Shown here piece after piece: positions 5,862-57,205 of a stretch of DNA of 64,000 bases. The notes under the pieces were generated by a model. It was given only the letters and a program-made list of their open reading frames with translations. It had not been told where the DNA came from and searched no databases. Within the stretch, counting starts at the first letter, position 1. Each line of letters begins with the position of its first letter. Made by a program: the position numbers and the translations under genes. Source of the stretch: Komagataeibacter xylinus (GTDB lineage: Bacteria > Pseudomonadota > Alphaproteobacteria > Acetobacterales > Acetobacteraceae); NCBI RefSeq assembly GCF_031081985.1, contig NZ_JARWSK010000007.1, forward strand, positions 124,001-188,000. The letters are read 5' to 3'.

Positions 5862-5942
5862 AAACGTTTCTGGTGAAGCTTTTTTCGGAAAGCTTGAGAA
5901 GAACGCTACCTTTTTGAAAAAAGGCAGCCCTCAAGACTTTTC
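5862..5942 (+). repeat. Double-hairpin intergenic element, copy A
   Basis: About 80 bp with two U-rich hairpins: the first pairs AAGCTTT (5876-5882) with AAAGCTT (5889-5895); the second pairs CCTTTTT with AAAAAAGG, flanked by GCT/AGC (5906-5928). The left edge AAACGTTTCTGGTGAAGC matches the left edge of other copies (for example copy G, GTTTTTGGTGAAGC). It lies between convergent infC and the SIMPL-domain gene, overlapping the latter's stop region by a base or two. Confidence 0.8.
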
Positions 5943-6690
5943 AGGGTTTCAAAATCACCGTTGCCCGCGCTGTTGCGGTCACATCCTGCTGCCCGGTGGG
6001 GGCCTCGGGGGCGGCTACGTCAGCCGAGGCCATGCGGGCCATCATCATCATGGGCATGGGGCGGGGGAAGTTCTGCTCCTCCAGCGCGACCGAGCGGATG
6101 GAGGCCACCCTGAGCTTCAGCGTTGCCGCCGCTGCCTGCGCGCGGGCCTGCATGTCTTCCAGCGCCAGGGTTTCGGCCTTGCGGGTCAGTTCCGCGCGCC
6201 TGGTGCGCGAAAGCGACCAGTCCAGCCGGGTCAGCGCCAGATTCTCGGCCTGGATGCGGCCCACGAGTGGCAGCAGCACCTTGCCGTCGGCCGCTGTCAG
6301 GCGCAGGCCCTGCCGCGCCACCCATTGCGGCTTGCGGTTCTGGTGCACGTCGCCTTCATCATGATGCACGAAATAGGATTCGGCATTGATCACCAGCCCG
6401 TCGGTATGGGCGGTGGCGGCGATGGCCTTGCTGATGAGCGTATTGAGCTGCGCCTGTGCTGCGGCGGCGGTATCGGCCTGCGCCTCGGCCACGAAGGTGG
6501 CGGTCAGTTCATCAGGCGGGGCCTGCACGGTGCCGGTGGCACTGAGTTCGAGTTCGGTGCCATCGGGGCGGGTGGAGTCGGGGGTCTGGGCCATGCCTGC
6601 TGCCGGGTGCAGCCCTGCCGCCGCCAGCAGGCCGCAAAGAGCTACCGCCTGGCATGCGCGGGCGGGGAACGAAAAACGCGATCTGATCAT
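5941..6690 (-). CDS. Exported SIMPL-domain (DUF541) protein
   Basis: A 249-residue protein with a signal peptide (MIRSRFSFPARACQAVALCG, then a hydrophobic stretch ending AAGMAQ) followed by the SIMPL/DUF541 fold: LELSATGTVQAPPDELTATF at the start of the mature protein and ALTRKAETLALEDMQARAQA-type helix later. Family members are periplasmic or outer-membrane-associated oxidative-stress proteins of unclear biochemistry. A Met-rich patch (RPMPMMMMARMAS) lies near the C-terminus. The ATG overlaps the stop of the upstream small gene by 4 bases (ATGA), and AGGAG lies 11 bases upstream. It is the last gene of the htrA/two-component group. Confidence 0.85.
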   Translation of the reverse strand: MIRSRFSFPARACQAVALCGLLAAAGLHPAAGMAQTPDSTRPDGTELELSATGTVQAPPDELTATFVAEAQADTAAAAQAQLNTLISKAIAATAHTDGLVINAESYFVHHDEGDVHQNRKPQWVARQGLRLTAADGKVLLPLVGRIQAENLALTRLDWSLSRTRRAELTRKAETLALEDMQARAQAAAATLKLRVASIRSVALEEQNFPRPMPMMMMARMASADVAAPEAPTGQQDVTATARATVILKP

Positions 6691-7025
6691 GAATGCGTGG
6701 TCTCCTTGAGTTCGACCAACGCGCGACGCAGCCGTACGATGCCCGAGCGGATGCGCCCCTCGCGGCACATGTCCGCACCCTGCATGCGCAGGCTGTCCAC
6801 ATCCTGCGGCAGGGTGGGGCCATAGGCATCGATGATGTTGAGCAGCCGGTTGCAATAGGCCTTGGTGTCGCTTGTGATGATGACCGGCTTGTCGCCGCCG
6901 CCATCACGCGCGGTCATGATCCGGGGCATATCCTCCGGTGGCGCGGTCGGCGCGGGTGCCGCGCCGCACAGGCAGAAACTCATCACGACGATGACGGGCG
7001 TCACGGAGGATTGCATGGTCATCAT
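6687..7025 (-). CDS. Small secreted protein of unknown function
   Basis: A 112-residue protein with a short signal peptide (MMTMQSSVTPVIVVMSFCLC) and a mature part with two cysteines (AYCNRLL and DMCREG) that could form a disulfide, and a basic C-terminal helix (IRSGIVRLRRALVELKET). No family recognised. It starts one base after the histidine kinase stop and overlaps the SIMPL gene by 4 bases, so it is translationally coupled to both and is probably a periplasmic part of the same envelope response. Confidence 0.7.
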   Translation of the reverse strand: MMTMQSSVTPVIVVMSFCLCGAAPAPTAPPEDMPRIMTARDGGGDKPVIITSDTKAYCNRLLNIIDAYGPTLPQDVDSLRMQGADMCREGRIRSGIVRLRRALVELKETTHS

Positions 7026-7026
7026 G

Positions 7027-8595
7027 TTACTCTACGCTACTGTTCGTGTCGTGCTGATGGGGTAATGGTGACGTTTGTGTCATGCCTGATATGTGCGTGC
7101 ATGAGGACAGATCCTCCTCCGCTTCACTCAGGGCGCTCGCGGCCACGGGCAGGGCGAGCGAAACCATAAGCCCCGGCGCATGCGAGGAGAGATGCATCTG
7201 CCCCCCATGCAGTTGCACGATGGCCCGCACCATCGACAGCCCCAGCCCCGAGCCGGGGGTGTGGCGGGCCTTCTCCGCGCGGAAGAAGCGCTCGGTCGCG
7301 CGCGCCATGTCCGCGGCACTCATGCCGATGCCCTCGTCACTGACCGAAAGGTCGAGCATGCCCTCGCCCGTAGGGTCGGCACGGCGCCCCGGCGCGATTT
7401 CGCGCAATTTCGCGCGCAGGAAGACCGTGCCGCCGGGGGGCGAGAATTTGATGGCGTTATCGAGCATGTTGGCCACGGCCTGCTGCACCAGCGAGCGGTC
7501 GCCGTAAAAGAACAGGCGGCCGGGCAGGTCGAGTGCGAGGGTAATGCCATGCTCTTCGGCCACGGCTTCATACAGGTCGGCCACGTCGCGCAGCACGGGC
7601 ACGAGGTCAAAGGTCATGAACGCCGAGCGGCGCGCCCCCGCCTCGATCTGGGCAATGCGCAGCAGGGCCTCGAAAACGGCGGTCACGTTATCAAGGTCGC
7701 CCACCGCGCGCTCGATCGCGCCGCGCAGTTCATCGGGCGTGCTGGCATGGAGGGCGGCATCTTCAAGCTGGGTGCGGGCGCGGGCGATGGGGGTGCGCAG
7801 GTCATGGGCAATAGCGTTCGACACCTGCCGCACGCCATCCATCAGGCGCACGATCCGGTCGAGCATTTCATTGATGGCTTCGGCCACCTGGTCCATCTCG
7901 TCGCCATTGCCCACAAGCGGCATGCGGCGACTGAGGTCGCCATGCGCAATGGCGGAGGTGGTGCGCGCCACGGTCTTGACCATGCGGCGGAAGATGCGGT
8001 GCACCAGTACCGCCCCGCTGATGGCCAGCAGCGTGACCATGACCCACGCCCACAACAGCGAATCGGTCAGCAGGTGGCGCAGGATGCCGCGCGCGCGCAC
8101 GTCGCGTCCCACAAGCAGGCGGTAGCCGCTATCAAGCTGGCCTTCGGTGTGGGTCTGGGCGGTGCCGGGCAGGTTGTAGCCATGAAGCTGGGCCATGCCG
8201 CGCAGCCCGGCGCGGGTATCGGGCAGGTTGTACCACCGGTCGGTATGCTCGACCTTGCCGGGCCAGGCGGAGACGTTGCCGGTCAGGTAATTGCCCTGCG
8301 GGTCGATGACCAGATAGATCGCGTCATCATCAAGGTTCTGTTCAAGCCGGTCCTCGATGGTCAGGGCCAGCGTGGGCAGGCCGCCCATGACCCATCGCTC
8401 GGCCAGGCCGCGCGCATCGGCGTTGATGGCGGTTTCCACTTGGCGTTCAAGGAACCCGATCGTGCCCCACCACATGAACGACATGAACAGGATGGAAGAC
8501 AGCGCGAACATGGTGCCATAGGCCAGCGAAAAGCGCAGGCTGGCCGACCGCCACGCCCGCCAGCGGGAGCGGCGGGGCAGGTCGGGCGCTGTCAT
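7027..8595 (-). CDS. Sensor histidine kinase (EnvZ/PhoR-like)
   Basis: An inner-membrane kinase that senses a signal and phosphorylates the response regulator encoded just upstream. Visible order: TM1 (about residues 20-45, FSLAYGTMFALSSILFMSFM), a periplasmic sensor region of about 130 residues, TM2 (about 180-200), HAMP domain, the dimerisation/phosphoacceptor helix with His264 in NAIAHDLRTPIA, and the HATPase domain (N box MLDNAIKFSP, G boxes DEGIGM and GSGLGLSM). I chose the ATG at 8595; a GTG six codons upstream is also possible. The gene lies 108 bases after the response regulator stop. The signal is unknown, but the neighbouring HtrA and SIMPL genes suggest envelope damage. Confidence 0.95.
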   Translation of the reverse strand: MTAPDLPRRSRWRAWRSASLRFSLAYGTMFALSSILFMSFMWWGTIGFLERQVETAINADARGLAERWVMGGLPTLALTIEDRLEQNLDDDAIYLVIDPQGNYLTGNVSAWPGKVEHTDRWYNLPDTRAGLRGMAQLHGYNLPGTAQTHTEGQLDSGYRLLVGRDVRARGILRHLLTDSLLWAWVMVTLLAISGAVLVHRIFRRMVKTVARTTSAIAHGDLSRRMPLVGNGDEMDQVAEAINEMLDRIVRLMDGVRQVSNAIAHDLRTPIARARTQLEDAALHASTPDELRGAIERAVGDLDNVTAVFEALLRIAQIEAGARRSAFMTFDLVPVLRDVADLYEAVAEEHGITLALDLPGRLFFYGDRSLVQQAVANMLDNAIKFSPPGGTVFLRAKLREIAPGRRADPTGEGMLDLSVSDEGIGMSAADMARATERFFRAEKARHTPGSGLGLSMVRAIVQLHGGQMHLSSHAPGLMVSLALPVAASALSEAEEDLSSCTHISGMTQTSPLPHQHDTNSSVE

Positions 8596-8703
8596 GGCCA
8601 CCCGCGCAGGCACCCGTCATGCAGGCGCATCCCTGCCGCCGGGGGGCGGGCCGTGCCGTGGGCGGCTGCGGCCTGCGCCTGACAGGGCGCGGCGCGGGGC
8701 CGG

Positions 8704-9384
8704 TTACTCGGCACGCAGCATGTACCCCGCATTGCGGATGGTATGGATGAGCGGCGTGCCAAAGGGCTTGTCCACCTTCTGGCGCAGGCGCGAGACATGC
8801 ACGTCGATCACGTTGGTCTGCGGGTCGAAATGGTAGTCCCACACGCCCTCGAGCAGCATGGTGCGGGTCACGACCTGGCCTGCATGGCGGGCGAGATATT
8901 CCAGAAGGCGGAATTCGCGCGGCTGGAGGTCGATCTTCTGCCCCGCCCGGCGCACCGTGCGCGAGAGCAGGTCGATCTCGAGATCAGCCACTTCCAGCTT
9001 GGTCTGGGGCGCGGTTTCGGTGCGGCCCCGGCGGCCAAGGGCCTCGACGCGGGCCAGCAGTTCGCTGAAGGCGAACGGCTTGGTCACGTAGTCATCGCCG
9101 CCCGCCTTGAGGCCCTGCACGCGGTCATCCACATCCGCCAGCGCCGAGAGCAGCAACACGGGGGTGGTGTTGTTCTGCGCGCGGATGGTCTCGAGCAGGC
9201 GCACGCCATCAATGCCGCCGGGCAGCATGCGGTCGAGTATGATCAGGTCGAACTTTTCGCTCACGGCCATGAACAGGCCGTCCTTGCCGTTATCGGTCAT
9301 CTCGACCAGGTGGCCGGCTTCCTTCAGGCCCTTGGCCACGAAGGAGCGGACGGTGGGGTCATCTTCAACAACAAGAATATGCAA
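8704..9384 (-). CDS. OmpR/PhoB-family response regulator
   Basis: A DNA-binding regulator with a receiver domain (acidic pair in LVVEDDPTVR, phosphoacceptor Asp51 in DLIILDRMLPGG, switch Lys in DYVTKPFAF) and a C-terminal winged helix (LEVADLEIDLLSRTVRR to VHVSRLRQKVDKPFG). I start it at a TTG (giving MHILVVEDD) because GAGG stands five bases upstream and family members begin there; the ATG at 9435 would lie inside the htrA coding end and has no Shine-Dalgarno. From TTG it is 226 residues, normal for the family. It sits between htrA and the cognate kinase. Confidence 0.93.
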   Translation of the reverse strand: MHILVVEDDPTVRSFVAKGLKEAGHLVEMTDNGKDGLFMAVSEKFDLIILDRMLPGGIDGVRLLETIRAQNNTTPVLLLSALADVDDRVQGLKAGGDDYVTKPFAFSELLARVEALGRRGRTETAPQTKLEVADLEIDLLSRTVRRAGQKIDLQPREFRLLEYLARHAGQVVTRTMLLEGVWDYHFDPQTNVIDVHVSRLRQKVDKPFGTPLIHTIRNAGYMLRAE

Positions 9385-9415
9385 AACGGCCTCGTGTCGG
9401 TTGGGGCGGGGTCGG

Positions 9416-10621
9416 TCAGTCGTCCAGGTCTTCATCGGGGCGGTGGCCCACGCAGGCTTCCAGGCTCATGGTATCGTGGCGGCGGCGGATGTGCAGCGTT
9501 ACGGTGGAATGCGGCCGCTTGGCCGCGATCGAGCGGATCAGCATGCGCGCGGTGTCGATCGGCTCGTCATTGACGGCCGTAATGACATCGCCAATGCGCA
9601 GATGCGCCTTCATGGCCGGGCCATCACGGTCGATTCCCACGATCTGCACGCCGCCATGACCTGCGCCGTCAGCCAGTGTAACACCAAGCCAGCCACGGTC
9701 TATATGCCCGTTGAGGCGCAGCTCCTCCACAATCGGGGCCACGATCTCCGATGGGAGGCCAAAGCCTATGCCCACCGAGCCGCCGGTGGGCGAGACGATG
9801 GCCGTGTTCACCGCCACCACCTGCCCGCCCAGATTGAACGATGGCCCGCCGGAATTGCCGGGATTGATGGGTGCGTCGATCTGGAAAAAGTCATCGAACG
9901 GGCTGGTGCCGATATCGCGCCCGCGTGCCGATACGATGCCTGCCGTCACACTCGAGCCCAGCCCGAACGGGTTGCCCGCCGCCATGATCCAGTCACCGAT
10001 ATTGACCAGCCTGCTGTCGCCCCACGGCACGAAGGGCATGGGGTGGGGCGCGTGGATCTGGATCACCGCGATATCGGTCAGGTCATCGCTGCCTACCAGG
10101 CGGGCGGGGAATTCCGTGCCATCGGAGAGCGAGACGGTAATCTGGTCGGCCCCCCCCACCACATGCGCATTGGTCACGATCACGCCGTCGGGGTCGATCA
10201 GGAAGCCCGATCCCGCGCCGAGCAGTTCCTCGCCATGGGCACGCATGCGCTCGCGGAATTTATGCTCGAACGGCGTGCCCTTCACGCTGGGGGGCAGGGG
10301 CTGGCGGGTTGCGGCCTGATGGCTGTCCTGCGCCTGCGATACGGCGATGTTCACCACGGCGGGGCCAACCTGGCGCACCAGGGGGGCAAAGGTCAGCGGC
10401 CCGGTCTGCACCACGGGCGGCACCGGCGGCGCGAACAGTGAGGGACTGGCGGGCACGCCCGGCGCGGAGGCTGCCACGGGGGCTGTCGCGTCCTGTGCAA
10501 GCGCCTCCGTGCCCGCGCCGGTCATGCTCAGCAGCAGGACCGGCAGCAGGCGTGCAGCCGGACGGGCCGTGGCGATCCATGTCATGCCGGGGGGCTGGGG
10601 AATGCGTTCATGATGAGACAT
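9416..10621 (-). CDS. HtrA/DegP-type periplasmic serine protease
   Basis: A trypsin-like protease and chaperone that clears misfolded envelope proteins. After a signal peptide (AARLLPVLLLSMTGAGTEALA) comes the protease domain with the triad His153 (TNAHVVGG), Asp183 (DDLTDIAVIQ) and Ser257 (NPGNSGGPS), then a single PDZ domain (about 300-385, GWLGVTLADGAGHGGVQIVG). One PDZ and 401 residues are closer to DegS/short DegQ than to two-PDZ DegP. The chosen ATG (MSHHERIPQ) is weakly supported; an in-frame ATG lies 19 codons upstream. It is the first gene of a minus-strand group that continues into the two-component pair. Confidence 0.93.
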   Translation of the reverse strand: MSHHERIPQPPGMTWIATARPAARLLPVLLLSMTGAGTEALAQDATAPVAASAPGVPASPSLFAPPVPPVVQTGPLTFAPLVRQVGPAVVNIAVSQAQDSHQAATRQPLPPSVKGTPFEHKFRERMRAHGEELLGAGSGFLIDPDGVIVTNAHVVGGADQITVSLSDGTEFPARLVGSDDLTDIAVIQIHAPHPMPFVPWGDSRLVNIGDWIMAAGNPFGLGSSVTAGIVSARGRDIGTSPFDDFFQIDAPINPGNSGGPSFNLGGQVVAVNTAIVSPTGGSVGIGFGLPSEIVAPIVEELRLNGHIDRGWLGVTLADGAGHGGVQIVGIDRDGPAMKAHLRIGDVITAVNDEPIDTARMLIRSIAAKRPHSTVTLHIRRRHDTMSLEACVGHRPDEDLDD

Positions 10622-10734
10622 GTTATCCGAAAAAAGCGGCAATGCCATGTCTGCATGGCATGGTAGGGGCTGATGCATGCGTTTTTAGGGGCGGCCTGAC
10701 AGGCCCGCGCCATACGGCCTGAAAGCCACATGAT

Positions 10735-10811
10735 GTTTCCGGTAAGGCTTTTTTCAAAAACCTCCGGAAGAATACTGTTTTTTTGGGGGAAAGGGGCACC
10801 CGAAACCTTTT
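10735..10811 (+). repeat. Double-hairpin intergenic element, copy B (diverged)
   Basis: GTTTCCGGTAAGGCTTTTTT at the left edge and CACCCGAAACCTTTT at the right edge match the edges of the other copies. The first hairpin (AGG-CTTTTTT/CAAAAA-CCT) is retained; the second is degraded (TGTTTTTTTGGGGGAAAGGGG). It lies between hrpB and htrA, both on the minus strand, so it could end hrpB transcripts before htrA. Confidence 0.65.
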
Positions 10812-10829
10812 ATTATTTTAATCTGCATC

Positions 10830-13388: not shown

Positions 13389-13488
13389 ATCTTCATCTTA
13401 TGGCGTCGGGCATGGTGGCGGGGCAATCCTTGCCGTGCTGCGTGGCGGCGTTTTTCCTCATCCCCGGTTTTTGGTGGAGTAACTGTCC

Positions 13489-15582: not shown

Positions 15583-15602
15583 CCCGCGCGGGCAGAACAG
15601 AG

Positions 15603-15684
15603 AAAAGTTTTTGGTAAAGCTTCTTTCAACAAGTTTTGAAAGAACGCCGCCTTTTTGAAAGAAGGCGGCGCCCGGAAATGTTTC
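15603..15684 (+). repeat. Double-hairpin intergenic element, copy C
   Basis: Left edge AAAAGTTTTTGGTAAAGCTT; second hairpin CGCCGCCTT (15645-15653) / AAGGCGGCG (15662-15670), a perfect 9-bp stem with a U- and A-rich loop. It fills the gap between the convergent dsbD-like gene and an unknown secreted-protein gene, ending where the latter's stop codon begins. Confidence 0.85.
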
Positions 15685-16602
15685 TTACTGGCCCGTGCCG
15701 CCCGGCAGGGTCAGGTTGCCCGGCGGCGGTGAGCGCAACTGCGGTGTTGGTGTGGCGGTATCGCTACCTTCGGATGAATATCCTTCGGGGAAGATCGCAT
15801 CCGGTTCCTCATGGATGGCCTTGGGCCGCGCGGGTGCGGGGGCTGCTGCCGGTGCGGCCGTGGCCTCCGGGTGGTCATCGGTCGGGCCGCCGCCAATGGT
15901 CATGGTATCCGCCCCGGTGGCCGGGCTGGCAGGGGTGGTGGTGACGGCGGGCGTATCGCCATCAAGCGGTTCGGCGGCCACGCTGCCCGGTGCCTGCGGC
16001 GTGACCAGCCAGTTGCCAAGGTTGGTGCGGATCTGGTTTTCCAGCTCCTGGTTCATGTCCTGCAGCATGAGGTTGGTCAGGGTGTTCAGGTTCTGGGGCG
16101 TGTCGCTGTTGCCGTGCTTCTTCTTGGGGTCAAACGAGCGGGTGACCTGGGCCACGGCATAGCCGGTGCGGCGGCCATCGGCGGAGGTCACGTCGAGATG
16201 CACGTTCAGTTGCCCGTCAAGGATGCCACCCGGCTCATGCAGGATGGACACCCGGTCGATGGTAAACGTGCCGCTGCCCCCGCTGCCTGCGGCAACCAGC
16301 CGGTCATGCGCAAGCTGCTTGAGCAGGTCATCGGGCGGGTTGGGCGCGCGGCCCGACAGGTCGCCCGGCACCAGGCCCGGGCCGCCCCGGTCCACCACCG
16401 ATATGGTGGCGACATTCAGGTTCAGCGGTGGCTGGTCACCATATTGCGGCCCGGCAAAGGTGGTCGGCTCGTCATGGTGGTGGCGGCTGTAGGCGGGAGC
16501 GCTGAGCGCAGTGAGCGCGATGAGGGGCAGGCCAGCGGCCAGCATCACGCGCAGGCTGCGGCGGAACGACAGGGGGCTAAGCGGCGAACGGTTCGGTCGC
16601 AT
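15685..16602 (-). CDS. Secreted protein of unknown function
   Basis: A 305-residue protein with a twin-Arg-free signal peptide (RSLRVMLAAGLPLIALTALS, then APAYS). The mature part has one ordered region (about 45-200), including LNLNVATISVVDRGGP, LDGQLNVHLDVTSADGRRTG and a coiled helix LTNLMLQDMNQELENQIRTN. A C-terminal low-complexity tail rich in Ala, Pro, Thr and Gly follows. No family recognised. The tail looks like a periplasmic or cell-wall spacer. It stands alone, with the DsbD-like gene convergent on one side and hslO co-directional on the other, 92 bases away. Confidence 0.75.
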   Translation of the reverse strand: MRPNRSPLSPLSFRRSLRVMLAAGLPLIALTALSAPAYSRHHHDEPTTFAGPQYGDQPPLNLNVATISVVDRGGPGLVPGDLSGRAPNPPDDLLKQLAHDRLVAAGSGGSGTFTIDRVSILHEPGGILDGQLNVHLDVTSADGRRTGYAVAQVTRSFDPKKKHGNSDTPQNLNTLTNLMLQDMNQELENQIRTNLGNWLVTPQAPGSVAAEPLDGDTPAVTTTPASPATGADTMTIGGGPTDDHPEATAAPAAAPAPARPKAIHEEPDAIFPEGYSSEGSDTATPTPQLRSPPPGNLTLPGGTGQ

Positions 16603-17657: not shown

Positions 17658-17677
17658 GGCACAAACCCGCTTCATCA

Positions 17678-28367: not shown

Positions 28368-28892
28368 ATGGCGATTTCAGCTCTCAGACCCCTTTCATGT
28401 GCATTGCTTGTGTCGAGTGGCTTCATGCTCTCGGGGTGCACGGGTGCCGATGTTTCGCGCGCTTTCGGGCTCGAGCGCAGCCTGCCCGACGAATACACCG
28501 TCACCACCCGCGCGCCCCTGTCCATGCCGCCATCGGATGAACTCGGCGCGCCCAACAGCAATGCGGTCCAGCGCGCGCAGGACACCAACCCGCGCATGCA
28601 GGCGCTTGAAACCCTCTCGCCCAACGTGGCGCTGCAGGGGGCTGATGGCACGGACAGCGCAGGGCAGACCGCCCTTGTGGGTCAGGCGCAGGAAGCCGCG
28701 AACGAGCCCGACAAGGGCGAGATGGGCCGGGCTGACACCAGCTTTGTGGACAAGCTGATGTTCTGGCATGGTGGCGGGGCGGGGAACCTGGTCAATGGCA
28801 AGGCGGAAAACGCCCGCCTGCGCGAGGATTCGGCCCTTGGCCGCAACCTGACCCAGGGGGCTACGCCCACCGTCAGCGGCCCGGCCAAATAA
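28368..28892 (+). CDS. BamF-like lipoprotein (DUF3035)
   Basis: A 174-residue lipoprotein with lipobox LSGC after a signal peptide (LSCALLVSSGFMLSGC). Close to the lipidated Cys is SLPDEYTVTTRAPLSMPP, matching the R-x-x-PDE(F/Y) motif of DUF3035 proteins. A DUF3035 protein was described as BamF of the outer-membrane protein assembly complex in Caulobacter (established for that organism). A low-complexity middle and an acidic/Gly C-terminus follow. It lies downstream of lspA and upstream of mutL. Function by homology only. Confidence 0.82.
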   Translation: MAISALRPLSCALLVSSGFMLSGCTGADVSRAFGLERSLPDEYTVTTRAPLSMPPSDELGAPNSNAVQRAQDTNPRMQALETLSPNVALQGADGTDSAGQTALVGQAQEAANEPDKGEMGRADTSFVDKLMFWHGGGAGNLVNGKAENARLREDSALGRNLTQGATPTVSGPAK

Positions 28893-28896
28893 GAGA

Positions 28897-28950
28897 TTTC
28901 CAGCTGCCGTTTTTTTAAAAAGCGGCACGCGCTGAAGTTTTTTGAAATGG
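28897..28950 (-). repeat. Double-hairpin intergenic element, copy D (partial)
   Basis: A degenerate copy in the reverse orientation, just after the BamF-like gene. TGCCG and CGGCA pair around TTTTTTTAAAAAG (28904-28926), followed by GCTGAAGTTTTTTGAAA, which matches the hairpin-spacer region of the reverse-orientation copies E and F. The outer edges are not clear. It may serve as the terminator of the lspA-bamF unit. Confidence 0.5.
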
Positions 28951-29072
28951 CGCCACCGGCAACGTCCCTTATGGTTACGGGATGTTTGCTGGAGGGGCTT
29001 TTCTGGCCGCCCCATGCGGGCTGGCCCGCACGGGTGCGGCATCCGCGTATTCCACAACCCCGGTTTATCCGC

Positions 29073-31072: not shown

Positions 31073-32608
31073 ATGGATGATGTGAGACCGAATGTGCATC
31101 CGATCCTGCTCTCCCTAGTTACGTATCTGCCCCTTGTGGGGGCTGCGGCCATCCTGCTCACGCGCGGCACGGCCCAGAGTATCGAGACCGCCGCGCGCTG
31201 GGTGGCGTTGTGGACCAGCAGCATCGTGTTCGTGCTGGCTGTTGTCATGTGGGCGCAGTTCAACCCCGCAAGGCCCGGCATCCAGTTCGAGCAGCAGGTG
31301 GGCTGGGCCAGTGGCGCGGGCATGTCCTACCATGTGGGGGTTGATGGCATCAGCCTCATGTTCGTGCTGCTCTCCGCCTTCCTCACGCCGCTGGCCATCA
31401 TTGGCGGGTGGCGGCAGGTCACGGGGCGGGTGCGTGACTACATGGTGGCCATGCTGGTGCTGGAAACCACGCTGATCGGCCTGTTCTCGGCGCTCGATCT
31501 GGTGCTGTTCTATGTGTTCTATGAAGCAACGCTGCTGCCCGCCAGCCTCATGATTGGCGTATGGGGCGGCCCGCGCCGGGTCTGGGCCTCGCTGCAGTTC
31601 TTCCTGTTCACCTTTGGCGGCTCGCTGTTCATGCTGCTGGCACTGCTGGCCATGTGGAACGCCACCGGCACCACCGACATCGTGGCCCTGCAGCATCACG
31701 GTTTTGGCCACGGCATGCAGTGCTGGCTGCTGGCGGGCTTCATCATCGCCTTTGGCGTCAAGCTGCCGCTCTTCCCGCTGCATGCCTGGCTGCCCGATGC
31801 CTATACGGAGGCACCGACCCCGGCCTCGGTCATGCTCTCTGGCGTGCTGTCAAAGGCGGGGGCATACGGGCTGCTGCGCTTTGGGGTGATGATGTTCCCC
31901 GATGCGGCGCGGCTGTTCGCCCCCGTGGTGCTGACGCTGGGGGTGATTGCGGTGATCTATGCCGCCATCATCGCCCTGGCGCAGACCGATATGAAGCGCG
32001 TGATCGCCTATTCCTCGTTCTCGCATATGGGGGTGATCGCCATCGGGCTGTTTACGCTCACGCCTGAGGGGATTGATGGTGCGATTTTCCAGATGCTGTC
32101 GCATGGCATCGTGATTGCAGCGCTGTTCTTCTGTGTCTCTGCCGTGTCTTGGCGGGCGGAAACGCGCGAGATCAGCGCATTCTCAGGTGTTGCCCACAAG
32201 ATGCCGGTGCTGGCTACGCTGGCCATGCTGTTTGTCATGGCCAATATCGGCCTGCCGGGCACAGGGGCGTTCGTGGGTGAGTTCCTGGTCATGGTCGGCG
32301 CGCTGCATGTCTCGTTCTGGCTGGCCTTCCTCGGCGGCACGAGCATGATCCTGGGGGCGGTCTATATGCTGGTGCTCTACCGCCGCGTGCTGTTTGGCGC
32401 GGATCGGGGTGGCATCGTGGCACTGCTGCGCGACCTGACCGGGCAGGAACTGGCCGTGCTGGTACCGCTGGCGATCGTTACGGTGTGGATGGGGGTGCAT
32501 CCCAACTCGTTCCTGCGCGTGTTCGACCCCGCCGTGACCTACCTGCTGCACCCGCTGGCTACCGTGGCGGCAGTCGAGCCCACGCAGATCACGCATGTGG
32601 CAGGATAA
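31073..32608 (+). CDS. nuoM: NADH-quinone oxidoreductase subunit M (NuoM), isolated gene
   Basis: An antiporter-like membrane subunit of respiratory complex I. From the chosen ATG it is 511 residues, close to E. coli NuoM (509), with about 14 hydrophobic helices. The key charged residues are kept: Glu151 in FYVFYEATLLP and Lys230 in GVKLPLFPLHAWLPDAY, matching E. coli E144 and K234 in position and motif. No other nuo gene is in the window: mutL lies 134 bases upstream and parE is convergent. Either it is a second, solitary NuoM or the complex I genes here are scattered. A relation to Mrp-type antiporters is possible but the motifs favour NuoM. Confidence 0.9.
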   Translation: MDDVRPNVHPILLSLVTYLPLVGAAAILLTRGTAQSIETAARWVALWTSSIVFVLAVVMWAQFNPARPGIQFEQQVGWASGAGMSYHVGVDGISLMFVLLSAFLTPLAIIGGWRQVTGRVRDYMVAMLVLETTLIGLFSALDLVLFYVFYEATLLPASLMIGVWGGPRRVWASLQFFLFTFGGSLFMLLALLAMWNATGTTDIVALQHHGFGHGMQCWLLAGFIIAFGVKLPLFPLHAWLPDAYTEAPTPASVMLSGVLSKAGAYGLLRFGVMMFPDAARLFAPVVLTLGVIAVIYAAIIALAQTDMKRVIAYSSFSHMGVIAIGLFTLTPEGIDGAIFQMLSHGIVIAALFFCVSAVSWRAETREISAFSGVAHKMPVLATLAMLFVMANIGLPGTGAFVGEFLVMVGALHVSFWLAFLGGTSMILGAVYMLVLYRRVLFGADRGGIVALLRDLTGQELAVLVPLAIVTVWMGVHPNSFLRVFDPAVTYLLHPLATVAAVEPTQITHVAG

Positions 32609-32682
32609 AGGTTTTGGGCGCCGCCTTTTTTAAGGCGGCGCTCTTCTGAAGCTTTTGAAAAAAGCTTTACCAAAAACGTCTG
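32607..32682 (-). repeat. Double-hairpin intergenic element, copy E
   Basis: Reverse orientation. AAGGTTTTGGGCGCCGCC at one edge and AAGCTTTACCAAAAACGTCT at the other. The first hairpin pairs CGCCGCCTT with AAGGCGGCG; the second pairs AAGCTTTT with AAAAGCTT. It overlaps the nuoM stop by two bases and lies between convergent nuoM and parE. Confidence 0.85.
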
Positions 32683-46479: not shown

Positions 46480-46524
46480 TCTGTCTCCGGATCACGATTC
46501 TCAAAACCTTGCTCTATCCCGCGC

Positions 46525-49615: not shown

Positions 49616-50577
49616 GCGCCTTCTCCCCCGCGTGCGAGCAGGTCGAGCACCGCCATGCGCACCGCAACCCCCATTTCCACCTGTTCACGGATCACGCTCT
49701 GCTCGGAATCGGCCACGCGGCTGTCAATTTCCACGCCCCGGTTCATCGGGCCGGGATGCATGACCAGCGCATGCGGCTTCGCCAGCGCGAGGCGCTTGTT
49801 ATCAAGGCCATAGAAGCGGAAATATTCCCGCGCGCTGGGCACCTGTGTGCCCTTCATGCGTTCGCGCTGCACGCGCAGCATCATCACCACGTCCACGCCG
49901 CGCAGGCCGTCTTCCATGGTGTGATGGATGCTCACGCCTAATGCGCTAATCGCGCCGGGCACCAGCGTGGGCGGCCCCACCACGCGCACCTGGCAGCCCA
50001 GTGCGGTGAGCAGGTGAATGTTGGAGCGTGCGACCCGGCTGTGGCTCACATCGCCGCAGATCGCCACCGTCAGCCCCTCGAACGTGCCGAAATGGCGGCG
50101 GATGGTCAGCGCATCGAGCAGGGCCTGCGTGGGGTGCTCATGCGTGCCATCGCCCGCATTGACCACGCTGGCCTGCACCTTCTGCGCCAGCAGGGCGGGC
50201 GCGCCGGACTGGGCATGGCGCACGACGAGCAGGTCGGCATGCATGGCGTTGAGCGTGGCTGCGGTGTCGAGCAGCGTCTCGCCCTTGTTGACCGAGGAAC
50301 TGGCCACGGTCATGTTCACCACATCCGCGCCCAGCCGCTTGCCCGCCAGTTCGAACGAGGTGCGGGTGCGGGTGCTGTCCTCAAAGAACAGGTTGATGAG
50401 CGTGCGCCCGCGCAGCAGGTCGCGCGGGGTCTTGCGCGAGCGGTTGAGCAGGGCGTAGTGCTCGGCCAGGTCCAGTATGGGCATGATCCGGCTCGGATGC
50501 ATGCCCTGCACGCCCAGCAGGTGGCGCGTGGCGGAGTTGGCGAAGACGTTGCTGCCGTGGCTGCCGCGCTCACTCAT
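49612..50577 (-). CDS. pyrB: Aspartate carbamoyltransferase catalytic subunit
   Basis: Makes carbamoyl-aspartate in pyrimidine synthesis. The 321-residue protein has [13 protein letters not shown] (carbamoyl-phosphate loop, STRTR at 68-72), [14 protein letters not shown] and the aspartate-loop segment [12 protein letters not shown]. It overlaps gltX by 8 bases and the dihydroorotase homologue by 4, so expression of the PyrB-PyrC' pair is coupled. No pyrI regulatory subunit is in the window. Confidence 0.97.
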
Positions 50578-51976: not shown

Positions 51977-52219
51977 GAACCGGGTTCCTAGCATGTTTTC
52001 GCCCTGCTGACAGGGGGCACTCTGGCGTGAAAACCGTTCCGCCCGCTAGGGTGTGCATTCCTGCCACGCCTTTTACGCGCATCATGGGGGTCTCCTGTCG
52101 GGTCTGTCTGCCATTTGCCATCAATGCCGCTGCGGCTGGCATGCCGTCCTGGCGTGGGCAGGCGCCGGGCTGGTGTCGATTCCGGGCCGGGCGGCAGCAC
52201 CTGCCGGGCGGGGTGGTTT

Positions 52220-54367
52220 GTGAGCCGGGTGCTGGCAGGGGGCCTGCCGCGCCTGCGGGCCGCGCTCACCGCGTGGCTGTGGGGGCAGAACACTCGCCTG
52301 GTGCTGTGGCTGCCGGTGGCGCTTGCGGGTGGCATCATCGCGTATTTTGCCCTGCCGACCGAGCCGGGCGGGGTGGTTGTGGCGGGGGGCGTACTGGCCT
52401 GCCTGGCGTCGCTCGCCTGCCGCCTGCTGTGGCCTGACCGGCTGGCCGTGCGGTTGGGCGCGGGCATGGTGGGCGCCGGTAGTGTGGGGTTGCTGCTGGC
52501 ATGGGGGCAGGCATGGCGCATGCCGCCTTTCCCCGACCTGCCGCGCCGGGCGGTGCATCTGTCCGGGCAGGTGGGTGGGGTTGAGGTGCAGCGTCTGGCC
52601 GATGGCACGCAGGTGCTGCGCGTGGCGTTGCGCGGTGTGCGCCTTGAGGATGGGATCAGCATTGGCATGCCGCCCCTGCGGCGGTTGCTGTCCGTGCGCC
52701 TGCAGGCCGATGACCCGGCGCGGCCCATGCCGGGCGATGGGCTGCGGGTGCGCGCCCTGCTGTCGCCGCCTGCCTTCCTCGACATGCCGGGCGGGTATGA
52801 CGCCCAGCGCCGGGCGTGGTTTGCAGGGCAGGCGGGGCATGGCCGTGCGCTGGGCCAGGCCACGATCACGCCCGCGCGGGTGGGCGGCGGTGTGGCGGGC
52901 TGGCTTGCGGGCAGGCGGCATATTCTGGCGGAGCGGATAAGGACGGCCCTGCCCGGTGCGCGGGGCGATATTGCCGCAACGGTGCTGGTTGGCGCGGATG
53001 GCGCGGTGGATGGCGCAATGCGCGCGGCCTTTGCCGATGCGGGTCTTGCGCACCTGCTGGCCGTGACGGGGCTGCATCTGGCCATTGTGATGGGGCTGGT
53101 GATGGTGGTGCTGCGCACGGGGCTGGCGCTGAGCGAGCGGGCGGCGCTGTACTGGCCATGCCGCCAGATCGCGGCGGTGGGCGCATTGCTGGCGGGGTGC
53201 GGTTACGTGCTGCTGACCGGCATGCACCTGCCCGCCCAGCGCAGCCTGCTCATGGCGGGGCTGGCGCTCATGGCGCTGCTGGCGGGCAGGCGGCCGCTCT
53301 CGCTGCGTGCGCTGGCGGTGGCCGCGACGGTGCTTATGGCCCTCAACCCGGAGGGCGTGACCGAGCTGCCACTCCAGATGTCGGTAGCCGCGGTGATGGC
53401 GCTGATCGCGGGGTTTGACGCGCTGCGGCCTGCCCTTTCGGGCTGGGAGCATGATGATATGTGGCTGCGGCGGGTGGCGGCGCGTCTGGCCCACCCGCTT
53501 GTGGCCAGCGTGCTGGCGGGTGGTGCGTGCCTGCCGGTGGGCATGGCGCATTTCGGCACGGTGCAGCCGTGGTTCGTGCTGGCCAACCTGCTGGCGGTGC
53601 CACTGATGTCGGTCTGGATCATGCCGTGGGGGCTGGTCGCACTCGGGCTGATGCCGCTGGGGCTGGAAAAACTGGCCCTTGTGCCCATGGGCTGGGGCCT
53701 TGGCGTGGTGACGTGGCTTGCGCATCTGGTAGCCGGGCTGCCAGCCGCACGCATTGGGGTGCCAGCCATCGGCAATGCAGGGCTTGTGCTATTTTTTGCC
53801 GGGCTGTGCTGGCTGTGCCTGTGGGGCGGGCGTGTGCGGCTGGCGGGGCTTGCGCCCATCATGCTGGCGGTCCTGTCGCCATGGCTGGTTGCGCGGCCTG
53901 TCATCATGCTGGCGCCCGATGGGCGGATGGCGGGTGTTGTCACGGCGGGCCGCCTGCTGACCGGCCCCGGCCTGCATCCTGATCCCTTTGTGCTACGCGA
54001 ATGGCAGCGTGTGAGCGGACTGCCTGCGGGCGTGCTGCCTGCCGAGGGAACGGCAGGGCAGGTGGCGTGCCATGCCGGGGCCTGCCGCGTGGGTAATATC
54101 GTGCTGGTTCTTGCCAATCGCCCGCCTGCGCCGGGCCTGTGCAGGGGGAGCGTGCTGCTGATCAACCTGCCGGGCACGTGGGGGTGTGACGGCGTGCCCT
54201 CCATCGGGCGTTTCGACCTGTGGCGCAACGGGGCTTATGGCATTTACCGGCAGCCCGATGGCGGGCTTGTTGTGCAGACGGACCGCGCCGTGCGCGGGGC
54301 GCGGCCCTGGGTGATGCGCCCCGGCGGGGCGGGCCTGCCCAACCTGCCGCTGGCGCAGGCGGAATAA
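52220..54367 (+). CDS. comEC: ComEC/Rec2-family competence membrane protein
   Basis: The inner-membrane channel for single-stranded DNA uptake. The protein (about 715 residues from the GTG chosen) has an N-terminal pair of membrane helices, a DUF4131-like soluble domain, and the Competence domain with ADAGLAHLLAVTGLHLAIVM and several more helices. The C-terminal part is short and lacks the metallo-beta-lactamase domain seen in longer ComEC proteins. The start is uncertain; an ATG at 52115 is in frame. It is convergent with nth across repeat copy F. Confidence 0.9.
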   Translation: MSRVLAGGLPRLRAALTAWLWGQNTRLVLWLPVALAGGIIAYFALPTEPGGVVVAGGVLACLASLACRLLWPDRLAVRLGAGMVGAGSVGLLLAWGQAWRMPPFPDLPRRAVHLSGQVGGVEVQRLADGTQVLRVALRGVRLEDGISIGMPPLRRLLSVRLQADDPARPMPGDGLRVRALLSPPAFLDMPGGYDAQRRAWFAGQAGHGRALGQATITPARVGGGVAGWLAGRRHILAERIRTALPGARGDIAATVLVGADGAVDGAMRAAFADAGLAHLLAVTGLHLAIVMGLVMVVLRTGLALSERAALYWPCRQIAAVGALLAGCGYVLLTGMHLPAQRSLLMAGLALMALLAGRRPLSLRALAVAATVLMALNPEGVTELPLQMSVAAVMALIAGFDALRPALSGWEHDDMWLRRVAARLAHPLVASVLAGGACLPVGMAHFGTVQPWFVLANLLAVPLMSVWIMPWGLVALGLMPLGLEKLALVPMGWGLGVVTWLAHLVAGLPAARIGVPAIGNAGLVLFFAGLCWLCLWGGRVRLAGLAPIMLAVLSPWLVARPVIMLAPDGRMAGVVTAGRLLTGPGLHPDPFVLREWQRVSGLPAGVLPAEGTAGQVACHAGACRVGNIVLVLANRPPAPGLCRGSVLLINLPGTWGCDGVPSIGRFDLWRNGAYGIYRQPDGGLVVQTDRAVRGARPWVMRPGGAGLPNLPLAQAE

Positions 54368-54446
54368 AAGGTTTTGGGCACCGCTTTTTTCAAAAAAGCG
54401 TTGCCCTTTCGAATCTTTTTGAAAAAAGCTTCACCAAAAACGTCTA
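54366..54446 (-). repeat. Double-hairpin intergenic element, copy F
   Basis: Reverse orientation, AAAAGGTTTTGGGCACCGC at one edge and GCTTCACCAAAAACGTCT at the other. Arm one pairs CGCTTTTTT with AAAAAAGCG inside GGGCA/TGCCC; arm two contains CTTTTTGAAAAAAG. It begins within the comEC stop codon region and ends six bases before the nth stop, filling the whole convergent gap. Confidence 0.88.
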
Positions 54447-54451
54447 TCCGT

Positions 54452-55150
54452 TCAGGCCGGTGCCAGGCGCAGTTCATCCTTCAGGCGGTACTGGCAGGGT
54501 TCAAAAGCAGGGCAGCGCCAGCATTCGGGCTTGCGGGCCTTGCATACATACCGCCCGTGCAGGATCAGCCAGTGATGGGCCGGGCGCAGCATGTCAGGCG
54601 GGATGCGGCGCACCAGTTGGTCCTCCACCGCGCGCACGGTCGCACCCGGCGCCAGCCCCGTGCGGTTGCCGATGCGGAAGATGTGGGTATCGACCGCCAT
54701 GGTGCTGTCGCCAAAGGCCACGTTCATCACCACGTTTGCAGTCTTGCGGCCGACACCGGGCAGGGATTCAAGGGCCGCGCGGTCATGGGGCACCTTGCCG
54801 TCAAAGCGGTCGAGCAACTGCTGTGACAGCGCCACCACGTTGCGCGCCTTGGTGCGCCACAGCCCGATGGTGCGGATATGCGCCCCCACCTTTTCCTCGC
54901 CAAGGTCCACCATGGCCTGTGGGGTCGGCGCATCGCGGAACAGGTTGACGGTGGCCTTGTTGACCGAGGCATCGGTCGCCTGCGCCGACAGCACCACGGC
55001 TACGAGCAGCGTGTAGTCATCGACAAAGTCGAGTTCGCTCTCGGCATCGGGGTTGGCGGTGGCCAGCAGGCTGATGAAGGCACGGACTTCGGCCAGTGTC
55101 ATGGCGCGGCGGGCGGGCTTGGCCCGGGTGCGGGCGGAGGGTGTTGGCAT
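54452..55150 (-). CDS. nth: Endonuclease III
   Basis: A DNA glycosylase/AP lyase for oxidised pyrimidines. The 232-residue protein has the helix-hairpin-helix LPGVGRKTANVVMN with the catalytic Lys, the catalytic Asp in AVDTHIFRIGNRTG, and the iron-sulphur cluster C-x6-C-x2-C-x5-C (CKARKPECWRCPAFEPC), all intact. A short basic N-terminal extension (SARTRAKPARRAM) precedes the domain; an ATG at its end is an alternative start. Confidence 0.97.
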   Translation of the reverse strand: MPTPSARTRAKPARRAMTLAEVRAFISLLATANPDAESELDFVDDYTLLVAVVLSAQATDASVNKATVNLFRDAPTPQAMVDLGEEKVGAHIRTIGLWRTKARNVVALSQQLLDRFDGKVPHDRAALESLPGVGRKTANVVMNVAFGDSTMAVDTHIFRIGNRTGLAPGATVRAVEDQLVRRIPPDMLRPAHHWLILHGRYVCKARKPECWRCPAFEPCQYRLKDELRLAPA

Positions 55151-55327
55151 CGGCTACTCGCTGGGGTGGGTCGGGCGCATTGTGCGGCGTGGGGTGGGGT
55201 CTGTAAATTGCCCCCGGCCTTCATAACCCGGCATGGGCCTTGCATGCCACGCGGGGCGGGGCTAGTCGTTCCAGCCCTTTGCCGTGGCCGGTCGTGGCCG
55301 CGTTTCCTGCATTCTGGCGTGGTGGGC

Positions 55328-57112
55328 ATGGCTTCTTCCTCTTCCCGATCCCTCACGCGGCGGCATGAATTCGCCGCCGTTCTGGGTTTTGTGTGGCACC
55401 GGTGGCGGGCGTGGCCCGCCCTGCTTGCGGGCACGCTGGCGGGTATCGCGCTGGCTACGGTGGCCGATGTGATGATGCCGCTGCTGGCGGGCTGGCTGGT
55501 CGATGACGTGTCGCATCCGGCACAGGCGGCCACCATCCATCGCGCCATACGCGATGTGGCGGGGCTGACCGGGCTGGGCGTGGGCGGCATTGCGGCGCGG
55601 CGCATGGCATATGTAACCATCTCGCACCTGACCTCCCGCGTCATGACCGGCATCGTGACGGAGGCGTTTGGTCGCGTGCAGCGCTTTTCCAGCGAGTGGC
55701 ATGCCAGCAACTTCGCGGGCTCGACCGTGCGGCGCATCACGCGCGGGCTGGGGGCCATCGACACGCTGGGCGATACGGTGCTGCTCATGCTGGTGCCCGA
55801 GGTGATCGTGCTGTGTGCCACGACTGGCGTGCTGGCCTTTCACTGGGCGTTCATGGGGCTGGTGCTGGCGGTGGGGGCGGCAGCGCTTGTGGGGCTGTCG
55901 GTGGTGCTGACGCTGCATTATGTCGCGCCATCCGCCCGGCTGGCCAATGCGTGGGATACGCGCATGGGGGCCACCCTGTCCGATGCCGTGACCTGCAACG
56001 CCGTGGTCAAGGCCTGCGGGGCGGAGGCGCGCGAGGATGCCCGGCTGGCCTGGGTGGCGGGAAGGTGGCGGCAGCGCATGGTGCGCTCATGGCTGCGCGG
56101 CACCGACAGCGCCAATCTACAGAACCTTGCGGCCCTGCTCATGCGCATGGCGCTGATTGCCGGGGTGGCGGTGCTGTGGGTGCGGGGCCGCGCCGGGCCG
56201 GGAGATGTGGCCTATGTGCTGACCATGATGTTCGTCATACAGGGCTACCTGCGCGATATCGGCCAGCAGATTTCGGTCGTGCAGCGCTCGGTCAACGAGA
56301 TGGAGGAACTTGTGGCCCTGTTTGCCATGCAGCCCGGCGTGGCGGACCGGCCGGGCGCTCCGGCGCTGCGCGTAACACAAGGGCATATCCGTTTCGAGCA
56401 TGTCAGCTTCGGGTATGTGCGCCAGCACGGGCGCGTGCTGTTTGATGACCTGAACCTTGATATCGCGCCCGGCAGCCGGGTGGCGCTTGTCGGACCGTCG
56501 GGTTCGGGCAAGACCACTCTCACGCGGCTGCTGCAACGGCTTTATGACGTGCAGGCCAGGCGCATCACCATTGATGGCACGGATATTGCCACCGTGACGC
56601 AGGCCAGCCTGCGCGGGCAGATTGCCATCGTGCCGCAGGAGCCGCTGCTGTTTCACCGCTCGCTGGCCGAGAACATCGCCTATGGCCGCCCCGACGCCAC
56701 GCCTGCCGAGATTGCCCATGCCGCCCGGCAGGCCAATGCGGCGGACTTCATCGACCGCCTGCCGCGCGGCTATGCCACCATGGTGGGCGAGCGCGGGGTC
56801 AAGCTCTCGGGCGGCGAGCGCCAGCGCATTGCCATTGCCCGCGCCTTTTTGAGCCAGGCGCGCATCGTGATCATGGATGAGGCGACATCAAGCCTCGACT
56901 CCCAGTCCGAAGTGCAGGTACAGCAGGCGATGGAGCGCCTCATGGCCGGGCGCACGGTGCTGGTCATCGCCCACCGGCTTTCCACCGTGATGGGGCTGGA
57001 CCGCATCATTGTCTTCCGCCATGGCCGGGTGTGCGAGGATGGCACCCATGCCGCCCTGATGCAGCGCGAAGGCGGGCTGTATCGTGACCTGTTTGAACTT
57101 CAGTCCCTGTAA
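55328..57112 (+). CDS. ABC exporter, fused permease and ATPase (MsbA-like half transporter)
   Basis: A 594-residue half-transporter that would act as a homodimer. The N-terminal membrane domain has about six helices (for example WPALLAGTLAGIALATVADV); the C-terminal nucleotide-binding domain has Walker A VGPSGSGKTTLTR (about 388-400), signature VKLSGGERQRIA (about 490), Walker B RIVIMDEATSSLD (about 510) and the H-loop IAHRLSTV. Lipid, peptide or drug export is possible; the sequence does not tell. It stands alone, divergent from nth and convergent with hinT. Confidence 0.93.
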   Translation: MASSSSRSLTRRHEFAAVLGFVWHRWRAWPALLAGTLAGIALATVADVMMPLLAGWLVDDVSHPAQAATIHRAIRDVAGLTGLGVGGIAARRMAYVTISHLTSRVMTGIVTEAFGRVQRFSSEWHASNFAGSTVRRITRGLGAIDTLGDTVLLMLVPEVIVLCATTGVLAFHWAFMGLVLAVGAAALVGLSVVLTLHYVAPSARLANAWDTRMGATLSDAVTCNAVVKACGAEAREDARLAWVAGRWRQRMVRSWLRGTDSANLQNLAALLMRMALIAGVAVLWVRGRAGPGDVAYVLTMMFVIQGYLRDIGQQISVVQRSVNEMEELVALFAMQPGVADRPGAPALRVTQGHIRFEHVSFGYVRQHGRVLFDDLNLDIAPGSRVALVGPSGSGKTTLTRLLQRLYDVQARRITIDGTDIATVTQASLRGQIAIVPQEPLLFHRSLAENIAYGRPDATPAEIAHAARQANAADFIDRLPRGYATMVGERGVKLSGGERQRIAIARAFLSQARIVIMDEATSSLDSQSEVQVQQAMERLMAGRTVLVIAHRLSTVMGLDRIIVFRHGRVCEDGTHAALMQREGGLYRDLFELQSL

Positions 57113-57130
57113 AACACTGTTCAGTATAGA

Positions 57131-57205
57131 AAGTTTTTGGTGAAGCTTTTTTCAAAAAGCTTCAGGGAATGCCGCCTTCCTCAAAAAAAGGTGGCACCTG
57201 ATTCA
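57131..57205 (+). repeat. Double-hairpin intergenic element, copy G
   Basis: AAAGTTTTTGGTGAAGCTTT begins the copy. The first hairpin pairs GAAGCTTTTT with AAAAAGCTTC (perfect, 57143-57165 region); the second pairs TGCCGCCTT-type and AAGGTGGCA arms with one mismatch. It lies 19 bases after the ABC exporter stop, on the convergent side of hinT. Confidence 0.85.

Follow-up and report, generated by a model that had tools for sequence, protein, structure and literature searches.

A MITE-borne Y-shaped double hairpin at gene ends in Komagataeibacter

We describe a dispersed repeat of Komagataeibacter xylinus, the core of which folds as a Y-shaped double hairpin and has spread inside a 162-bp non-autonomous MITE that is flanked by TNA target duplications. 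The outer arms of this MITE are usually gone while the core is retained, and the best reading, which we consider probable, if far from assured, is that of a MITE-borne Y-shaped element retained as a gene-end structure.

Copies in the window and in the genome

The window, i.e. the whole stretch of 64,000 nucleotides that was analysed, had been the subject of a preliminary description that reported seven related intergenic sequences at 5862, 10735, 15603, 28897, 32607, 54366 and 57131, lying in both orientations. All seven were recovered at these places, with nhmmer e-values from 1.8e-19 (at 15604) to 1.9e-6 (at 28893, the most decayed) in a search of 464 kb, and both orientations are indeed represented (+ at 5862, 10735, 15603 and 57131, - at 28897, 32607 and 54366):

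Copy 1, 5862..5944, + strand: core, in a convergent gap bounded by a stop at 5798 on the left and by the end of the right gene at 5941
Copy 2, 10697..10819, + strand: left arm and decayed core (about 10733-10814), between tandem genes
Copy 3, 15602..15687, + strand: core, between convergent genes (stops 15582 and 15685)
Copy 4, 28888..29009, - strand: arm remnant, the most decayed copy (core e-value 1.9e-6), stop 28892 immediately before it, between tandem genes
Copy 5, 32604..32680, - strand: core, between convergent genes (stops 32608 and 32721)
Copy 6, 54363..54445, - strand: core, its edge overlapped by the stop of the left gene (54367)
Copy 7, 57089..57224, + strand: left arm and core (about 57130-57216), between convergent genes

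A classical intrinsic terminator lies ahead of the core of copy 1 (hairpin 5825-5848, T run 5849-5855). Decay is visible in several window copies on comparison with relatives, and the ortholog of copy 4 in genome G212 is in better shape. Shuffling predicts 1.8 occurrences of a loose hairpin motif in the window, in which 30 are present, including a few that lie outside the copies.

A 464-kb sample of the same genome contains 49 copies, from which we extrapolate to about 370 copies per genome. A covariance model search of the whole genome, in which 150 of 1737 first-look candidates were scored, gave at least 150 matches, all with e-values of 3.6e-7 or below; the outcome that would have spoken against a family, namely a few unrelated hairpins devoid of conserved edges, clearly did not occur. 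A pattern with exact edges proved over-strict, detecting 4 matches in the 464 kb against the 49 known copies. A looser pattern found 17 in this sample; in other genomes it found 3 in G020 (220 kb), 6 in G178 (80 kb) and 2 in G140 (80 kb), with none in 20 kb of G150 and none in one shuffle of each set.

Fold of the core

The core spans ~83 bp and consists of two GC-clamped hairpins with T6/A5 tops that are joined by a common outer stem, AAAAGTTTTTGG/CCAAAAACTTTT. Its two edges are inverted repeats of one another, as had been noted, and compensatory changes are present in the stems. In an alignment of 42 of the 57 copies extracted from the own genome, 28 cells were changed on both sides as against 11.5 in shuffles, and the covariation score was 0.166 as against 0.138, neither value being reached in any of 500 shuffles; the number of pairs with a change on both sides (11 of 32, against 7.9) was reached in 38 of the 500. 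Rfam gave no match at the gathering cut-off in the window, and the best weak match of one copy searched with its flanks (L005 1400-1680) was RsaE, with 36.5 bits as against 79.

The intact form is a MITE

In the Komagataeibacter-type genus the intact form is a MITE of 161-165 bp, with ends GAGACTGTTTGAAAA and the core in its middle. Of 19 facing TIR pairs counted, 18 were fetched, and these elements are short, lack coding capacity and carry the TIR GAGACTGTTTGAAAA. Equal TNA flanks were seen in all 18 (TTA in 12, TAA in 3, TGA in 2 and TCA in 1), the middle base being the actual test since the search pattern demanded TNA at both ends. The suggestion that the repeat is a miniature element is hence borne out by intact copies with TIRs and 3-bp target duplications, while the proposal that the core edges bound the unit holds for the bare cores and fails for copies with outer arms, which belong to the 162-bp element.

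Empty sites were found by comparison with relatives. The site at 10735 is empty in 10/10 distant congeners having both flanks, where the gap measures 66-72 bp; the five close relatives used for comparison have 198-200 bp there. Filled and empty states also contrast at sites 3, 4, 6, 10 and 13 in some relatives. At the 15605 site of one relative (L124) the stop codon TAA is immediately followed by GAGACTGTTTGAAAAG, so that the target lies within the stop codon.

The IS1031 and IS427 groups of the IS5 family have a TIR starting with GAG and produce a TNA target duplication. Taking TNA as the mark of these groups, the targets of the intact elements are those of an IS5-family derivative, and a transposase of the IS5/IS1031 type is the presumed mover in trans. 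None of the 15 DUF4096 loci examined in the own genome, nor of the 28 DDE_Tnp_1 loci in G211, carries a matching TIR pair that would mark a parent IS. A TIR pair 1.05 kb apart in G212 was discarded as a candidate parent, as it represents two MITE copies around a cytochrome-c-like gene. The description of the repeat as REP-like is apt for its location bias and does not extend to the REP mechanism, which we rejected on the lack of any match to the RAYT transposase (Y1_Tnp, PF01797) in the own genome; the same search was positive in 5 of 14 control genomes.

Gene context

Among the 47 classified copies (2 of the 49 sample copies, at stretch ends, being omitted), 24 lie in convergent gaps (binomial P 5.5e-8 per bp) and 2 in divergent gaps (P 4e-5), as judged by a home-made gene caller that misclassified at least one copy (54363). 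This is copy 6 of the window, which the caller had as tandem, whereas a minus-strand ORF ending at 54452, endonuclease III-like by eye, makes its gap convergent. The distance from stop to core is 20 nt or less in 36/69. Such a location bias is equally expected from mere insertion tolerance, and PMC3049150 reports a like bias for IS elements of pneumococcus.

In convergent gaps classical terminators were found elsewhere in 6/23 with the element and 11/28 without it (P 0.38), and we therefore see no substitution of the element for them; the tandem gaps have one in 1/19 and 4/95, respectively. A terminator role is weakly supported. In this genus the MITE, with its TIR GAGACTGTTTGAAAA and TNA duplication, has spread the core as its middle part. 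Insertions settled behind stop codons, where they are tolerated, and the arms were afterwards deleted or decayed while the core was retained, as comparison shows for one site and the statistics below show more generally. The retained core would most likely end transcripts symmetrically, serving one or both of the adjoining genes as a candidate bidirectional terminator and/or a block to 3'-end exonucleases.

Occurrence in other genera

The fold model matches at least 14 of 102 genera of the family, with other GC clamps in several of them. A class-wide search with this model gave a match in 1 of 289 genomes, namely the own one. These counts are minima, with misses possible in the family and class searches on account of stricter filters and fewer candidates scored per genome (22 and 15, respectively, as against 150 for the own genome and genus). 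No arms are visible in the majority of the pieces read from distant genera, and one copy, from genus g68 (L276), has a right-arm-like end. In three genomes with other clamps, 7 of the 8 copies placed in larger stretches, a set that leaves out weaker matches there, sit 0-32 nt after a stop. A core from a distant genus, searched against plasmids, gave no match, possibly owing to the low-complexity filter.

Retention of the core and rival explanations

A less probable reading, though one that we take seriously, is that the copies are purely selfish MITE debris, functionless and inserting harmlessly behind stop codons, in which the core seems kept only since it is recognised more readily and since new insertions, or exchange between copies, renew it. 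The location bias, the decaying copies and the unaffected classical terminators fit this, and so does the modest conservation of the core: at 21 orthologous sites its identity is 0.845 as against 0.789 in the adjoining 20 bp (P 0.013), a modest excess, and is no higher than that of sequence 100-200 bp off (0.879, P 0.19). Against it stand the stem covariation, the same fold in genera without arms seen, and the scarcity of arm pieces, which in 464 kb gave 7 and 3 matches as against 34 and 41 for core halves of similar length, i.e. 5 to 14 times fewer. The comparison that shows arm loss is at site 5862, where the left arm is kept in one relative (L123) and absent from four others. That the repeat is a REP-type palindrome, stalling ribosomes near stop codons or binding gyrase between convergent genes, appears improbable: the short distances from stop to core agree with the ribosome stalling that PMC12306157 reports for REPs lying no more than 15 nt from a stop, but the genome lacks a RAYT and the size and fold are unlike those of REPs.

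It is also conceivable, though we lean away from it, that the core represents an older element of the whole family, self-moving or exchanged between gene-end sites, which was captured by the 162-bp MITE of Komagataeibacter, and that inverted cores reflect replacement by ectopic gene conversion across the common edges instead of flips. The fold without visible arms in most distant-genus pieces favors this, as do the inverted cores. In one set of orthology pairs every named locus was counted as a separate genome. Good cores are present at 24 orthologous sites, 9 of which have an inverted pair, and the spacer length differs at 7/9 of these as against 1/19 sites with the same orientation (P 2e-4). 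However, the contrast shrinks to 2/4 versus 1/18 (P 0.07) at flank identity of 90% or more, so that divergence may confound it. Armed copies, moreover, are seldom inverted against their arms (2 inverted, 43 same, 54 undecided), G135 and G214 mostly agree in orientation (16 same, 2 inverted that are weak and doubtful, 3 absent), and the g68 copy has its right-arm-like end. We doubt that a simple flip is the sole cause of the inverted cores. Tentatively, the whole might be seen as Acetobacteraceae-wide exchangeable gene-end cassettes, in which the edges and T6/A5 tops of the Y-shaped double hairpin stay constant while GC clamps are swapped wholesale between genera; these would be replaced, often inverted, at fixed sites behind stops, and the MITE of one clade would insert even into the stop codon, its duplication restoring it, and bidirectional gene-end signals would thus be distributed by a transposon.

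Comparison with known systems

Under the favored reading, that of a MITE-borne element retained at gene ends, Komagataeibacter and its relatives, which make cellulose and vinegar, carry one mobile fold at many gene ends, and the repeat offers a natural series for how a transposon turns into a transcript-end signal. Since arms, core and orientation vary separately at matched sites, insertion tolerance is separable from selection. Hairpins recurring at gene ends are also relevant to genome assembly, recombination and construct design, and in related genera the shape of the fold outlasts its exact letters.

No description or name of this repeat was found in the open-access PMC papers searched, consistent with the earlier statement that the family has no known name. 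Its nearest likeness is to SPRITE, RUP and BOX of Streptococcus pneumoniae, which PMC3049150 describes as small dispersed MITE-like repeats enriched between convergent genes; SPRITE itself is found close to the 3' ends of genes, and its co-option as a terminator was proposed. The same paper gives SPRITE as a single 18-bp duplex with a U-rich tract, in 30 copies in the genome studied, whereas the Komagataeibacter repeat has a three-way junction with two hairpins, at least 150 copies, a TNA duplication and a 162-bp intact form, and belongs to another phylum.

With MITEs of the IS5 family (IS1031/IS427) it shares the short, coding-free form, the TIR starting with GAG and the TNA duplication; it differs in that a search of two genomes did not turn up its parent IS and in that its structured core outlives the TIRs. 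Like REP, BIME and REPIN sequences it is a dispersed extragenic palindrome at gene 3' ends, but it has no Y1 transposase, has both target duplication and TIR, and is of another architecture. The GC-clamped hairpins behind stop codons recall Rho-independent terminators, from which the repeat departs in having the T run inside the hairpin and an A/T-rich outer stem; by a simple rule 11/35 cores are terminator-like in the - orientation and 0/35 in the + orientation, i.e. in one direction.

Abundance and conserved fold of the core

The double-hairpin family is real and abundant. All seven copies of its ~83-bp core claimed for the window by the preliminary description (5862, 10735, 15603, 28897, 32607, 54366 and 57131) were found as stated and were re-detected by profile with a weakest e-value of 1.9e-6; of 30 high-scoring copies from the genome, 29 had served to build the core profile. 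A longer profile detected 49 copies at E <= 1e-5 in a 464-kb sample of the source genome (the window and 20 stretches of 20 kb chosen blind to copy positions), from which about 370 copies may be extrapolated for the 3.53-Mb genome. The genome-wide covariance-model search that the description had proposed, conducted with a model (R1) of 42 copies from this genome in a three-way-junction fold, recovered at least 150 matches (150 of the 150 scored among 1737 first-look candidates). Furthermore, R1 found matches in all 19 genomes of the Komagataeibacter-type genus, with 28 to at least 150 per genome, 150 being scored. DNA identity of the source genome to loci from Komagataeibacter xylinus, nataicola and melomenusus is roughly 89-95%, in most cases 92-95%, which would place it in Komagataeibacter.

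The core consensus, AAAAGTTTTTGGTGAAGCTTTTTTCAAAAAGCTTC-(7-9 nt)-GCCGCCTTTTTGAAAAAAGGCGGCACCCAAAAACTTTTATC, is predicted to fold as a single strand into a Y, with two hairpins closed by an outer stem AAAAGUUUUUGG/CCAAAAACUUUU and a predicted energy of -37.9 kcal/mol for a consensus-like copy. This fold is conserved: across the 42 copies, 91.4% of the cells were paired as against 89.9% in shuffles, and the test for compensatory changes proposed in the description showed stem covariation exceeding that of shuffles in cells changed on both sides (28 versus 11.5; reached by 0/500), covariation score (0.166 versus 0.138; 0/500) and further pair types (40 versus 34.5; 2/500). Counted by pairs rather than cells, two-sided change was less striking (11/32 pairs, versus 7.9 in shuffles and reached by 38/500). 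This covariation supports, rather than proves, selection on the fold, because it might in part stem from hairpin-templated repair and from the copies being related.

The core as the middle of a MITE

Similar flanks of several copies lengthen the repeat to a 162-bp consensus, which starts with GAGACTGTTTGAAAA and closes with the complement of that sequence or of one almost identical to it. A pattern search found such ends in 14 of the 19 genus genomes, and a close facing pair of them in 18 of 20 fetched stretches. All 18 intact elements measure 161-165 bp and are flanked by identical TNA triplets (TTA 12, TAA 3, TGA 2, TCA 1), although this agreement is informative for the middle base alone, given that the search pattern required TNA at each end. 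The suggestion of a miniature element in the earlier description thus holds, with the core forming the middle of a MITE with matching target duplications. Its insertion is evident from comparisons of sites: the insert at 10735 is common to the five close relatives compared and missing in all 10 distant congeners that have both flanks, and at sites 3, 4, 6, 10 and 13 of the cross-genome comparison at least one relative lacks the element. At the 15605 site of one relative, a TAA stop is followed directly by the left end of the element, an insertion into a stop codon that was restored by the duplication. TNA is the target of the IS5/IS1031 groups, and an enzyme of this type probably transposes the element in trans.

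The genome G211 has 42 exact matches to the terminal inverted repeat, sixteen of which make eight intact pairs with matching duplications, and the MITE looks recently active there. On contig C52 of G212 (L224, 4044-5089), two same-orientation copies with a total span of ~1 kb surround a gene judged by eye to be cytochrome-c-like, possibly forming a composite mobile unit. The Novacetimonas hansenii plasmid NZ_CP094849.1 has a copy (86644-86811) that shares 99.4% identity with a copy of G135 (contig C2), which points to transfer or to very closely related hosts.

Loss of the arms and location of the core

The arms are lost while the core stays. When the element was searched as 36-47-bp pieces in the 464-kb sample, matches at E <= 0.01 numbered 7 for the left arm, 34 and 41 for the core halves and 3 for the right arm; 8 of 98 non-redundant matches from the source genome span both ends of the long profile, in a biased set that includes copies fetched for a good core or end. 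At the 5862 site the left arm is kept in one relative (L123) and absent from four loci (L119-L122), whose junctions, read from the sequence, look as if the stretch from TAA to the core-edge TAAAAG had been deleted.

The core lies at gene ends. Excluding two of the 49 sample copies that fall at stretch ends, 24 are in convergent, 21 in tandem and 2 in divergent gaps, while the sample's intergenic gaps of at least 20 bp comprise 51 convergent (9.2 kb), 164 tandem (31.0 kb) and 54 divergent (15.5 kb) ones; per base, this is a convergent excess (P 5.5e-8) and a divergent deficit (P 4e-5). Stop codon and core are at most 20 nt apart in 36 of the 69 distances measured, and up to 450 nt apart in the others. 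Gene calls came from a simple home-made caller, which misclassed copy 54363 as tandem: a minus-strand endonuclease III-like ORF recognized by eye ends at 54452, which brings the convergent copies in the window to five of seven. An ABC-transporter-like ORF (54878-57112, by eye) overlaps this opposite ORF at 54452-55150, and its start is thus probably over-extended.

Inverted cores at matched sites

We noted opposite core orientations between well-aligned flanks, for example in the locus pairs L001/L113 (94-96%), L028/L112, L030/L064 and L069/L092 (98%). With both cores at 60 bits or more and flanks at least 84% identical, 9 of 24 matched sites had an inverted pair. Spacer length differed at 7/9 inverted versus 1/19 same-orientation sites (P 2e-4), and at 2/4 versus 1/18 when flanks were at least 90% identical (P 0.07). 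A flip thus seems less likely than an exchange of the core for that of a different copy, with divergence probably confounding the contrast. In the comparison of G135 with G214 (21 rows, in that direction), 16 cores had the same orientation, 2 were doubtful and 3 absent; among armed copies of the source genome, the core is canonical relative to the arms in 43, inverted in 2 and undecided in 54. Core orientation would appear to be changeable at fixed sites.

Relatives in other genera

A gapped exact pattern (56 stretches) found a near-identical core in Komagataeibacter, Novacetimonas, Gluconacetobacter entanii and Acetobacter musti. DNA searches gave mostly weak matches in 29/200 family genomes, and R1 matched 26/200, representing 14/102 genera with its own counted; among 289 genomes in a class-wide R1 search, 285 listed as outside the family, only the source genome matched. 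Weak matches from distant genera retain the edges and the T6/A5 tops with different clamps (e.g. GCTTC/GAAGC, GGTTC/GAACC, GCTCCC/GGGAGC). For six copies (L282, L283, L285, L286, L287 and L291) energy minimization predicts a single long hairpin, since each of the two hairpins is able to pair with the other. Eight copies were located within longer stretches from three distant-genus genomes, and seven of these lie 0-32 nt past a stop codon. No arms were seen in the distant-genus pieces read by eye, except for a right-arm-like end of one copy (L276) in the genus g68. Given the same fold in other genera and arms mostly absent from these pieces, the core may predate the MITE. Two weak R1 matches in g68 (L307, 12442-12585 and 17715-17864) extend over 137-150 bp and may be elements with enlarged hairpins.

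Comparison with known repeats

The element is a newly recognized MITE of a familiar type, with a structured core that forms a variant of its own. Lichenicola cladoniae also belongs to the Acetobacteraceae. Hairpin counts for this species are given in the RepRanger work, the available portions of which do not describe the double-hairpin element (PMC12306157). The accessible parts of Komagataeibacter comparative genomics and A. pasteurianus work (PMC6528568, PMC4686929) and of a stem-loop family survey (PMC2267715) do not mention it; a palindrome survey, as far as available, reports CGTC-tagged repeats as missing from Acetobacteraceae (PMC3733652). Within the accessible portions of the open PMC literature we found no description of the element, and the nearest precedent there is the SPRITE repeat from S. 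pneumoniae, which is MITE-like, scattered close to the 3' ends of genes and proposed to be a co-opted terminator (PMC3049150; PMC10969869).

A possible role of the retained core

The kept core would probably act as a symmetric transcript-end structure, because at both of its edges, on either strand, the closing stem is preceded by a run of A and followed by a run of U (CUUUUAU). However, several observations count against a terminator role: classical terminators are not depleted in convergent gaps bearing the element (6/23, versus 11/28 without it), a simple terminator rule is passed by 11/35 cores one way and 0/35 the other, and conservation at orthologous sites is modest (0.845 for the core, 0.789 for the 20 bp next to it and 0.879 at a distance of 100-200 bp). 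At the first window copy, a classical intrinsic terminator, GCCCGGAGGGATCACCCTCCGGGC with T7, already follows the left gene at 5825-5855 ahead of the copy, and its position is conserved in relatives.

Another type of repeat at gene ends has one hairpin only and reads GACGCCGC(C)TTT..AAAGGCGGCGTT, once trailed by ATTTT; it was noted at site 6 (in L055, where it precedes the element) and site 17 (G213/G214). At site 17 it occupies the spot of the double-hairpin core in one relative, and another relative has nothing there.
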